Assembly (NCBI GenBank): GCA_945881965.1
Contig: CAMCVS010000009.1
Coordinates: 1 to 64,000 of the forward strand
Direction: 5' to 3'
Length of the DNA stretch: 64,000 bases
Source: Paracoccus haematequi
Lineage (GTDB): Bacteria; Pseudomonadota; Alphaproteobacteria; Rhodobacterales; Rhodobacteraceae
Shown here in pieces: positions 20,440-22,331 of the stretch. Numbering within the stretch: the first letter of the stretch is position 1; every line of letters begins with the position of its first letter. A program made the translations under genes and the position numbers. Under the pieces are notes generated by a model. The model saw nothing but the letters and a program-made list of their open reading frames with translations. It did not search any database and was not told the DNA's origin.

Positions 20440-20513
20440 TGGAGCGGGCGGCGGGAATCGAACCCGCGTCTCTTGCTTGGAAGGCAAGGGTCTTACCATT
20501 ACACAACGCCCGC
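20440..20513 (-). tRNA. tRNA-Gly (anticodon TCC)
   Basis: A 74-nucleotide cloverleaf on the minus strand. The acceptor strand GCGGGCG pairs with CGCCCGC, with discriminator T and an encoded CCA (20442-20440). The anticodon stem CTTGC/GCAAG holds loop CTTCCAA with anticodon TCC (20481-20479), reading GGA/GGG. The T-arm GGTTCGATTCC is canonical. Confidence 0.97.
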
Positions 20514-20523
20514 GTGGCCGTGG

Positions 20524-20552
20524 ACATAGCGCGACTGCCCGAACAGAGGCAA
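20524..20552 (-). promoter_or_regulatory. sigma-70-like promoter of tRNA-Gly
   Basis: On the minus strand TTGCCT (20552-20547), a 17-base spacer and CTATGT (20529-20524) end ten bases before the tRNA. Confidence 0.5.
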
Positions 20553-20656
20553 GCAGATTTGCCGCGCCATCTGCGCCGGACCGCCGTAGCAAAGCCTTAA
20601 TCATGATCGCTGCCCCAATTTCGCCACAATCAAGGTCCATTGATGGACTTGCGAAA

Positions 20657-20675
20657 ACCGGGTGGGGCCGATTCG
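20657..20675 (+). repeat. conserved leader element, copy 1
   Basis: ACCGGGTGGGGCCGATTCG ends exactly 12 bases before the ATG at 20688. A copy with one mismatch lies at the same distance before the paralogous gene at 21237. Confidence 0.75.
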
Positions 20676-20687
20676 TGGAAGAAGTAA

Positions 20688-21038
20688 ATGCTGCGCTCAC
20701 TTTTGATTGTGCTGACTTTCGGGGCGACGTCCTTTGCGACGTTTGCGCTTGCGAAGGATCACCATGTCATCATCACTGACTTCGGGTTCTTCCCGCAGAT
20801 CAGCTATGTCAAACCCGGCGATGTGGTGCATTTCAAGAACGACCTGTGGTTTCCCCATGAACTGGCGGGTGGCCAGAACGAACGCAACAAATGGACCCTG
20901 CGGGTCGAGGCATACGGCACCAAGTCCATGCGTGTGACCGGAACGACGGACGCACCTTTCAACAGCACAAGCTGGCCCTTGATCCCCGCAGAATTCAGTT
21001 TCGACGATCCGCCCGACGCGGCCACCGCCGACGACTGA
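20688..21038 (+). CDS. small secreted cupredoxin-like protein, copy 1
   Basis: A 116-residue exported protein: a Sec signal peptide (MLRSLLIVLTFGATSFATFALA) and about 94 mature residues. The core HVIITDFGFFPQISYVKPGD and VVHFKND resemble the first strands of a plastocyanin-like fold, with one histidine (FPHEL) where a copper ligand could sit. No cysteine is present, and the usual second His and Met ligands are not evident, so a type 1 copper site is unlikely. The mature end is acidic (FDDPPDAATADD). GGAAGAAG precedes the ATG. A paralogue follows 198 bases downstream. Function is unknown; a periplasmic binding or stress role is possible. Confidence 0.75.
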   Translation: MLRSLLIVLTFGATSFATFALAKDHHVIITDFGFFPQISYVKPGDVVHFKNDLWFPHELAGGQNERNKWTLRVEAYGTKSMRVTGTTDAPFNSTSWPLIPAEFSFDDPPDAATADD

Positions 21039-21205
21039 GACGCGCGCCGCGTTGCGCAGGGGTCCGTTGGATACGCTCAGGTCGCGAGACCTGTAAGCGC
21101 GTCGTGCGCTTGCCGCCCTATTCTGCCGCCGACCCGCACAGCCAAATCACGAACATTTTAAGCACAAATTTCCGCCGCATTCAGCGCCTATACCTTGGAT
21201 CGTTG

Positions 21206-21224
21206 ACCGGGTGGGGCCGAATCG
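21206..21224 (+). repeat. conserved leader element, copy 2
   Basis: ACCGGGTGGGGCCGAATCG differs from copy 1 at one base and also ends 12 bases before its ATG (21237). The bases between element and ATG differ, and the ATG context AATGCTGCG is again shared. Confidence 0.75.
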
Positions 21225-21236
21225 AAAGTGTGCAAA

Positions 21237-21584
21237 ATGCTGCGTTATGTTATGTTTGCTGTGCTAAGCGTGTTCTTCGCTCTGCCAACGGTTGCAGAGG
21301 CGCGGATTCACTATGTCATCATCACCACGCTGGGGTTCTTTCCGCAGACGACCTATGTCGATGCCGGCGACGTTGTGTTCTTCAAGAACGATGACGAATT
21401 GACCCACAAACTGGCAGGCGCCGGCAGCGCGGGATGGCCGTGGAGCGTGACCGTCGCGCCCGCCGAATGGGGTGTGGTCTATGTGACCAAAACCGCCGAA
21501 AGCACCTACAACAGCGTGACCGCCCCGCTGGAAGACGGTGTGCTGAGCTTTCAGGATCCGCCGCACGAGGCTCAGGCCGACTGA
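21237..21584 (+). CDS. small secreted cupredoxin-like protein, copy 2
   Basis: A 115-residue paralogue of the protein at 20688-21038. The signal peptide (MLRYVMFAVLSVFFALPTVAEA) is followed by HYVIITTLGFFPQTTYVDAG and VVFFKND, one histidine in LTHKLAG, and a C terminus LSFQDPPHEAQAD. Aligned positions VIIT, GFFPQ, YV, GDVV, FKND, H-LAG, NS, PL, SF and DPP are shared with copy 1. There is no cysteine. I chose the ATG that matches copy 1; a GTG nine bases earlier is in frame. The ribosome site is weaker than in copy 1 (GAAAG). A local tandem duplication followed by divergence is the simplest origin. Confidence 0.75.
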   Translation: MLRYVMFAVLSVFFALPTVAEARIHYVIITTLGFFPQTTYVDAGDVVFFKNDDELTHKLAGAGSAGWPWSVTVAPAEWGVVYVTKTAESTYNSVTAPLEDGVLSFQDPPHEAQAD

Positions 21585-21656
21585 TACGGCGACGGACCAG
21601 GGCGGCCCAGGGCGGCCCTTACGCTGCCTGACCCGGATCGCGACAACCGCAGATTT

Positions 21657-22331
21657 TCAATGCTGTGCAGGCCCTTCGTCCGCGACGAGGGGCTTTGGCA
21701 ATTCCGGCCCGCGCGCGCGATTGGAATTGACCGCCACGCCGACACGCCACATCTGCAACCGGTCGGCGGGGCCTGCGTGCAACAGCCGCGCCGCGCCATG
21801 CCCCGCCTCTCCCAGCCATAACGGCCAGTCTTCGGCATCCAGGATCACCGGCACCCGGTCGTGGATCGCCGCCAGCGGACCGTTCGCCGCCGTGGTGACG
21901 ATGGCGCATCCCGTGACCTGCACGCCGTCGCGGTCCCAGTCCTGCCAGATGCCCGCCATCACCAGCGGTGCCCCATCGCGGCGGGTGACGAAAAACGGCA
22001 GCTTTTCCGCGCCATCGCGTTGCCATTCATAAAAGCCATCGGTCGGGATCAGACAGCGCCGTGCGCGCACGGCGGCGCGGAACGCGGGCTTGTCCGCGAT
22101 GGTTTCGGCGCGCGCGTTGATCAGCAGCGGGCCGTCATTCGGTGTCTTGTACCATGTCGGCACAAAACCCCAGCGCATCGGGCGCAACCGCCGCGCGCCA
22201 TCCACCACCGCGATCTGCGTCGTGGGACAGACGTTGTATTCGGGCACGGGTGGCAAATCATTGGCGGGCGTGGCGCGGAACAACTGCGCCATCGCATCGG
22301 TCGGCAGGGTCAGGGCGAAACGGCCGCACAT
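21657..22331 (-). CDS. yedK: SRAP family protein (YedK/HMCES-like)
   Basis: These proteins form a stable thiazolidine crosslink with abasic sites in single-stranded DNA through the amino group and thiol of Cys2. The start at 22331 gives MCGRFAL with the essential Cys2 after Met removal; the frame is open a little further upstream but that would bury the cysteine. The other active-site residues are seen in INARAETI, DGFYEWQ and IHDRVPVI, and the 224-residue length is normal. It converges on the cupredoxin-like pair. No LexA-like site is obvious. Confidence 0.93.
   Translation of the reverse strand: MCGRFALTLPTDAMAQLFRATPANDLPPVPEYNVCPTTQIAVVDGARRLRPMRWGFVPTWYKTPNDGPLLINARAETIADKPAFRAAVRARRCLIPTDGFYEWQRDGAEKLPFFVTRRDGAPLVMAGIWQDWDRDGVQVTGCAIVTTAANGPLAAIHDRVPVILDAEDWPLWLGEAGHGAARLLHAGPADRLQMWRVGVAVNSNRARGPELPKPLVADEGPAQH

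Follow-up and report, generated by a model that had tools for sequence, protein, structure and literature searches.

CsrA/RsmA sites are short protein-binding leader hairpins with a GGA core in the loop, and ANTAR targets comprise a tandem of two hexaloops in which position 1 is A and position 4 is G. The leader element analyzed here, from a two-gene locus of Paracoccus haematequi, resembles CsrA/RsmA sites and similar small leader hairpins bound by proteins or sRNAs in being a predicted short 5′-UTR stem-loop with a fixed loop that stands before many unrelated genes. However, where their loop has GGA, its own reads UGGGGG or GUGGGG, with GGA only in L034 and L080 (GUGGGA). With ANTAR-target hairpins it shares the hexaloop stem-loop in mRNA leaders, but loop position 1 is U or G instead of A, and one hairpin is modelled instead of two. 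The Breaker laboratory's structured RNA candidates from Rhodobacterales, HRC-8-4 and uORFC-8-2 (PMC8632094) and SAM/SAH (PMC2864571), are likewise structured RNAs of leaders or intergenic regions that are confined to this order, but their genes (cco genes, cysS and metK) differ from those found here, and HRC-8-4 (PMC8632094) ends in a U run, whereas none was seen in the present hairpin leaders. None of the Rfam 15 covariance models matched the leader at the hairpin, including when a permissive E-value was allowed. Searches of the open literature, together with term checks in three surveys of structured RNAs from bacteria, turned up no hairpin with these genes; an earlier unnamed sighting is possible. 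Judged from sequence comparison, the leader hairpin is probably an undescribed gene-control switch point.

The locus lies within a window of 64,000 nucleotides, the whole stretch of DNA that was analyzed, and comprises the following features.

20440 to 20513, minus strand: tRNA-Gly(TCC), the upstream neighbor, conserved in part of the cupredoxin-like family (neighborhood comparison)
20617 to 20630, plus strand: upstream conserved motif AATTTCGCCACAAT, a possible promoter-like element or operator (recurrence in homologues, by eye)
20651 to 20676, plus strand: leader hairpin of gene 1, GCGAA-AAC-CGG-[GUGGGG]-CCG-A-UUCGU (covariance model R1 match at 20647-20682, 29.6 bits; unaided fold; covariation)
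20688 to 21038, plus strand: gene 1 (P0001, 116 aa), exported Cys-free cupredoxin-like protein (ORF, paralogue alignment, profile comparison)
21166 to 21181, plus strand: the same upstream motif before gene 2, AAATTTCCGCCGCATT (by eye)
21203 to 21225, plus strand: leader hairpin of gene 2, UUGA-C-CGG-[GUGGGG]-CCG-AA-UCGA, with a weaker outer stem (R1 match at 21196-21231, 25.1 bits; constrained fold)
21237 to 21584, plus strand: gene 2 (P0002, 115 aa), exported Cys-free cupredoxin-like protein (ORF, paralogue alignment, profile comparison)
21657 to 22331, minus strand: SRAP/YedK-like gene, convergent, the downstream neighbor conserved in the cupredoxin-like family (neighborhood comparison)

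The product of the gene at 21657-22331 is named here as SRAP/YedK-like, which we take to denote an SOS response-associated peptidase, and among the genome stretches fetched this gene adjoins most Cys-free cupredoxin-like members. The span 20440-22331 forms a conserved neighborhood of tRNA-Gly(TCC), a Cys-free cupredoxin-like gene and the SRAP/YedK-like gene.

Both open reading frames are present as the first-pass annotation had described them, namely as a tandem of exported proteins: the products share 41% identity across 115 aa (E=3e-26, pairwise protein alignment), and each has a cysteine count of 0. The same annotation had named a single conserved histidine; the pair has two in common (H25 and H57), neither of which is conserved in the wider family. 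The homologues were gathered by a profile search of 397 Rhodobacteraceae genomes, which returned about 30 full-length sequences, and 31 proteins were compared. None of the 31 has a cysteine in its mature part, and histidine is entirely missing from some. Profile-profile comparison (hhalign) against five cupredoxins that do carry Cys, taken from these same genomes, gave a probability of 99.5% (E 1.3e-22), which makes the family homologous to the type 1 copper cupredoxins (plastocyanin/amicyanin; Pfam Copper-bind, Cupredoxin_1). Unlike those proteins, the family lacks the Cys ligand in 31/31 members and does not conserve the His and Met ligands; the ligand loop is replaced, with the copper loop YFCAFHRNMKG of the Cys-bearing cupredoxins aligning to YNSVTAPLEDG. 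Because profile homology is combined with the absence of cysteine and a replaced ligand loop, the Cys-free family is, on these sequence grounds, a descendant of type 1 copper proteins that has lost the copper site, which bears out the earlier suggestion as far as cupredoxin descent and the missing type 1 copper ligands are concerned. Matches in the PDB are weak (amicyanin and Cu nitrite reductase), Pfam Cupredoxin_1 matches 3 of 24 cupredoxin-like proteins, an AlphaFold model built from two sequences has a mean pLDDT of 49.8, too low to bear on a Greek-key beta barrel, and a scan of the genome contigs returned no named homologues of the family. In the protein tree, gene 2 clusters with the single-copy homologues of two relatives within the genus, to the exclusion of gene 1, so the duplication is older than the splits from these two relatives.

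The 19-mer ACCGGGTGGGGCCGAWTCG ends exactly 12 bases before the ATG of both genes, and its copies (20657-20675 and 21206-21224) differ at one base (T/A). This agrees with the original description of the element, and no further copy at up to 3 mismatches was found in the window, where shuffles average 0.16 matches. Exact matches to its 16-base core in the own genome are confined to the two window sites. The word GGTGGGGCCG is not enriched in that genome (34 sites vs 51 for the reversed word), and a word search there returned four further exact sites besides the window pair. Among the leaders of the cupredoxin-like family, GGGTGGGGCCGA or CGGTGGGGGCCGA occurs at up to 3 mismatches in 20/31 and at up to 1 mismatch in 14/31; dinucleotide-preserving shuffles lead one to expect 1.4 and 0.02, respectively. 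The comparison of upstream regions proposed at the outset gave a divided result, as the element is kept in these 20 homologues, while the other 11 of the 31 have no recognizable copy and the distance varies. From the end of the element to the ATG there are 16-26 bases in the homologues, so the 12-base spacing of the window pair does not hold generally. Homologues with the element are dispersed over the protein tree, a pattern suggestive of an ancient origin followed by losses, although the deep forks of the tree are weak. Two other candidates were tried and rejected: an upstream coding extension (R-V-G-P reading frame), in which the frame relative to the ATG varies and in-frame stops are present, and a GANTC methylation site as the core of the element, which is missing in many homologues.

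The duplicated element is best read as the conserved tip of a small RNA stem-loop. Two forms share one layout, consisting of GG, six bases (GUGGGG or UGGGGG), CC and then an outer stem; the GG/CC closing pairs are invariant, and the outer stem changes in sequence with its pairing kept. Compensatory base changes exceed what column make-up and neighboring registers yield. In alignment A3, which was built before any covariance model and is therefore not biased to the stem, covariation is 0.324 vs 0.153 in shuffles (sd 0.038, 0/500), slid registers reach at most 0.18, and columns 10-27 and 11-26 show five or six pair types each; RNAalifold on A3 retained only the three inner pairs. Native 5′ and 3′ flanks fold together at -6.75 kcal/mol vs -4.81 kcal/mol when swapped between homologues (p=0.00035, 20000 permutations), in a test that used a hand-set core and flanks of 13 bases; its p-value follows one set-up correction, an earlier core placement having given p=0.11. 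Taken singly, neither window leader folds more stably than shuffled sequences do (z 0.23 and 0.92), and in the gene 2 leader the unconstrained minimum is a different fold, the hairpin coming from the constrained fold only. The first-pass annotation had proposed an element under selection as an RNA or DNA control site; kept in 20/31 homologues and covarying as a hairpin, it is best read as an RNA site rather than as a by-product of duplication.

Covariance models built from 17 leaders (R1) and 23 leaders (R2) were run on the 397 Rhodobacteraceae genomes, and R2 matched in 159 of them (E<=0.02). A total of 84 newly fetched R2 loci were examined. In the best 68 (E<=3.8e-4, newly fetched loci only), the hairpin lies just upstream of a same-strand gene in every case (68/68), and this gene encodes a Hint-domain protein (Pfam Hint_2) in 63, a membrane protein of ∼115 aa in 4 and a small membrane protein in 1; some of the weaker loci among the 84 are apparently inside coding sequence. 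One early match (L176) precedes a gene for a DUF5930-type protein. The own genome has three matches at E<=0.02, namely the two window hairpins and a third ahead of a Hint gene (G000:C6:106638). Hint leaders are matched exactly in at least 120 stretches, and among the 80 matches listed all come from genera that we assign to Rhodobacteraceae or, by title, from unclassified Alphaproteobacteria. The element had been presented as a property of this gene; instead, the same hairpin precedes several unrelated genes across Rhodobacteraceae, and the R1/R2 matches before other genes rule out an element private to the cupredoxin-like family. Covariation in 33 members outside that family is 0.484 vs 0.211 (sd 0.025; slid registers at most 0.20), a value that leans towards the stem, the set having been gathered with a stem-favoring model. 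Pair 13-24 in the Hint leaders is CG in 39, UA in 17 and UG in 1, and one control of this pair count treats sequences without regard to relatedness.

A class-wide sample beyond Rhodobacteraceae contained no convincing member. Weak matches (E>=4.8e-4) in ten genomes of other families were rejected; of the eight read, several had a GGTTGGGGCC variant or ORF overlap and none had the Rhodobacteraceae gene contexts. Spread by phage was also rejected: five viral contigs match, but the context is not leader-like and is apparently coding.

Several leaders have features of their own. The hairpin-bearing leaders of the ∼115-aa membrane protein (L156, L161, L170, L225, L229, L233, L236, L257, L260) often have the Shine-Dalgarno site directly 3′ of the stem, and the one such protein tested had no Pfam match. 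In L158 and L239 the hairpin precedes a gene for a small membrane protein with LCR(M/L)xPARIW; one was tested and had no Pfam match. A weak intergenic match in the own genome (G000:C4:196226-196261; L005, L147; 13.8 bits) lies ∼55 bases ahead of the gene for an RTX-repeat (calcium-binding) protein. Hint leaders L261-L340 are conserved well past the stem (GTCCTTCTGTCGTTGTYGGTGGGGGCCRRCRCGGATGTGACC) and may form a second outer stem, UCUG/CGGA.

The sequence TTGAC occurs in 120/126 Hint leaders vs 9 expected, nearly always 61-82 bases upstream of the loop. A box ∼70 bases upstream implies that the hairpin should be transcribed, and a start ∼35 bases past it would place the hairpin within the 5′ untranslated region. 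The window itself yielded no consensus promoter. Inspection by eye showed a motif different from the TTGAC box, AATTTCGCCGCAAT, in many homologues, at ∼40-60 bases 5′ of the hairpin. It is sometimes tandem with a period of ∼10-11 bases and also stands before some membrane-protein genes; besides the window pair, L019, L031, L036, L156 and L161 are instances of it. A search for intrinsic terminators found no terminator-like site on the plus strand at the window hairpins, and the 3′ flanks of the hairpins have no U runs.

It is fairly probable that the hairpin is a post-transcriptional control site in mRNA leaders, bound by one shared, putative trans-acting factor. Located in the 5′ untranslated region, it would head the mRNAs for the cupredoxin-like, Hint-domain, ∼115-aa membrane and DUF5930-type proteins; one small RNA or RNA-binding protein common to them would bind it, and the bound factor would set the translation or stability of this mRNA group. 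What the sequences display is conservation, covariation, strand and position, recurrence before unrelated genes and, in the Hint class, an upstream promoter box; action at the RNA level in the cell, reading by a trans-acting factor and the direction of control are inferred. Conservation is highest in the loop, the stem persists in its pairing but not in its sequence, and the same tip precedes unrelated genes, which is how a site recognized by a shared factor would be built. From one form to the other, GGUGGGG moves by one base against the stem, as would suit a reader that recognizes this linear string directly, such as a small RNA with CCCCACC; such an RNA and a protein would be equally possible readers.

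An unlikely alternative is a hairpin that acts without a partner, as a passive 5′ stabilizer or a translation-initiation structure tuning mRNA decay or ribosome access. The hairpin is indeed close to the Shine-Dalgarno site, to which the outer stem extends in some cupredoxin-like leaders (L083, L042, L024, L038), but a passive stem would need no invariant UGGGG loop, and in the Hint leaders the Shine-Dalgarno site is well downstream of the stem. Because the outer stem of the Hint leaders stops short of that site, the stem cannot act solely through ribosome access. Slightly less probable again is that a transcription factor binds the element as DNA, in an operator or as part of a promoter, with the inverted repeat CGG-N6-CCG as a dimer site. 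The element is near promoters, and the T/A variable base of the window copies sits in GAWTC, a GANTC context as methylated by CcrM; however, GANTC is missing in many homologues, and the element lies ∼70 bases downstream of the TTGAC box in Hint leaders and in a single orientation relative to the gene in 68/68 of the best new loci. Its asymmetric centre does not vary, whereas changes in one arm are compensated in the other, and this greater conservation of loop than of arms differs from what a DNA palindrome shows. It is highly improbable that the element is a coding feature or a chance remnant of the duplication, kept only through recent common descent: the window copies adjoin and are paralogous, but their proteins differ by 59%, the duplication predates the split from the two genus relatives, the frame relative to the ATG varies with in-frame stops present, and 14/31 homologues keep the element at up to 1 mismatch.

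The post-transcriptional control site may extend to a regulon: the chances are about even that the hairpin marks a Rhodobacteraceae-wide post-transcriptional regulon co-controlling Hint-domain, envelope and copper-free cupredoxin proteins, through a small RNA whose seed resembles CCCCACC or through an RNA-binding protein not yet described. The hairpin ties Hint-domain proteins to other, unrelated genes, and its invariant loop would be a ready bait for finding the regulator. A leader hairpin that stands before unrelated genes in about 40% of the sampled genomes of Rhodobacteraceae, a large and ecologically important family, and that has no Rfam entry, points to an unnamed regulator.
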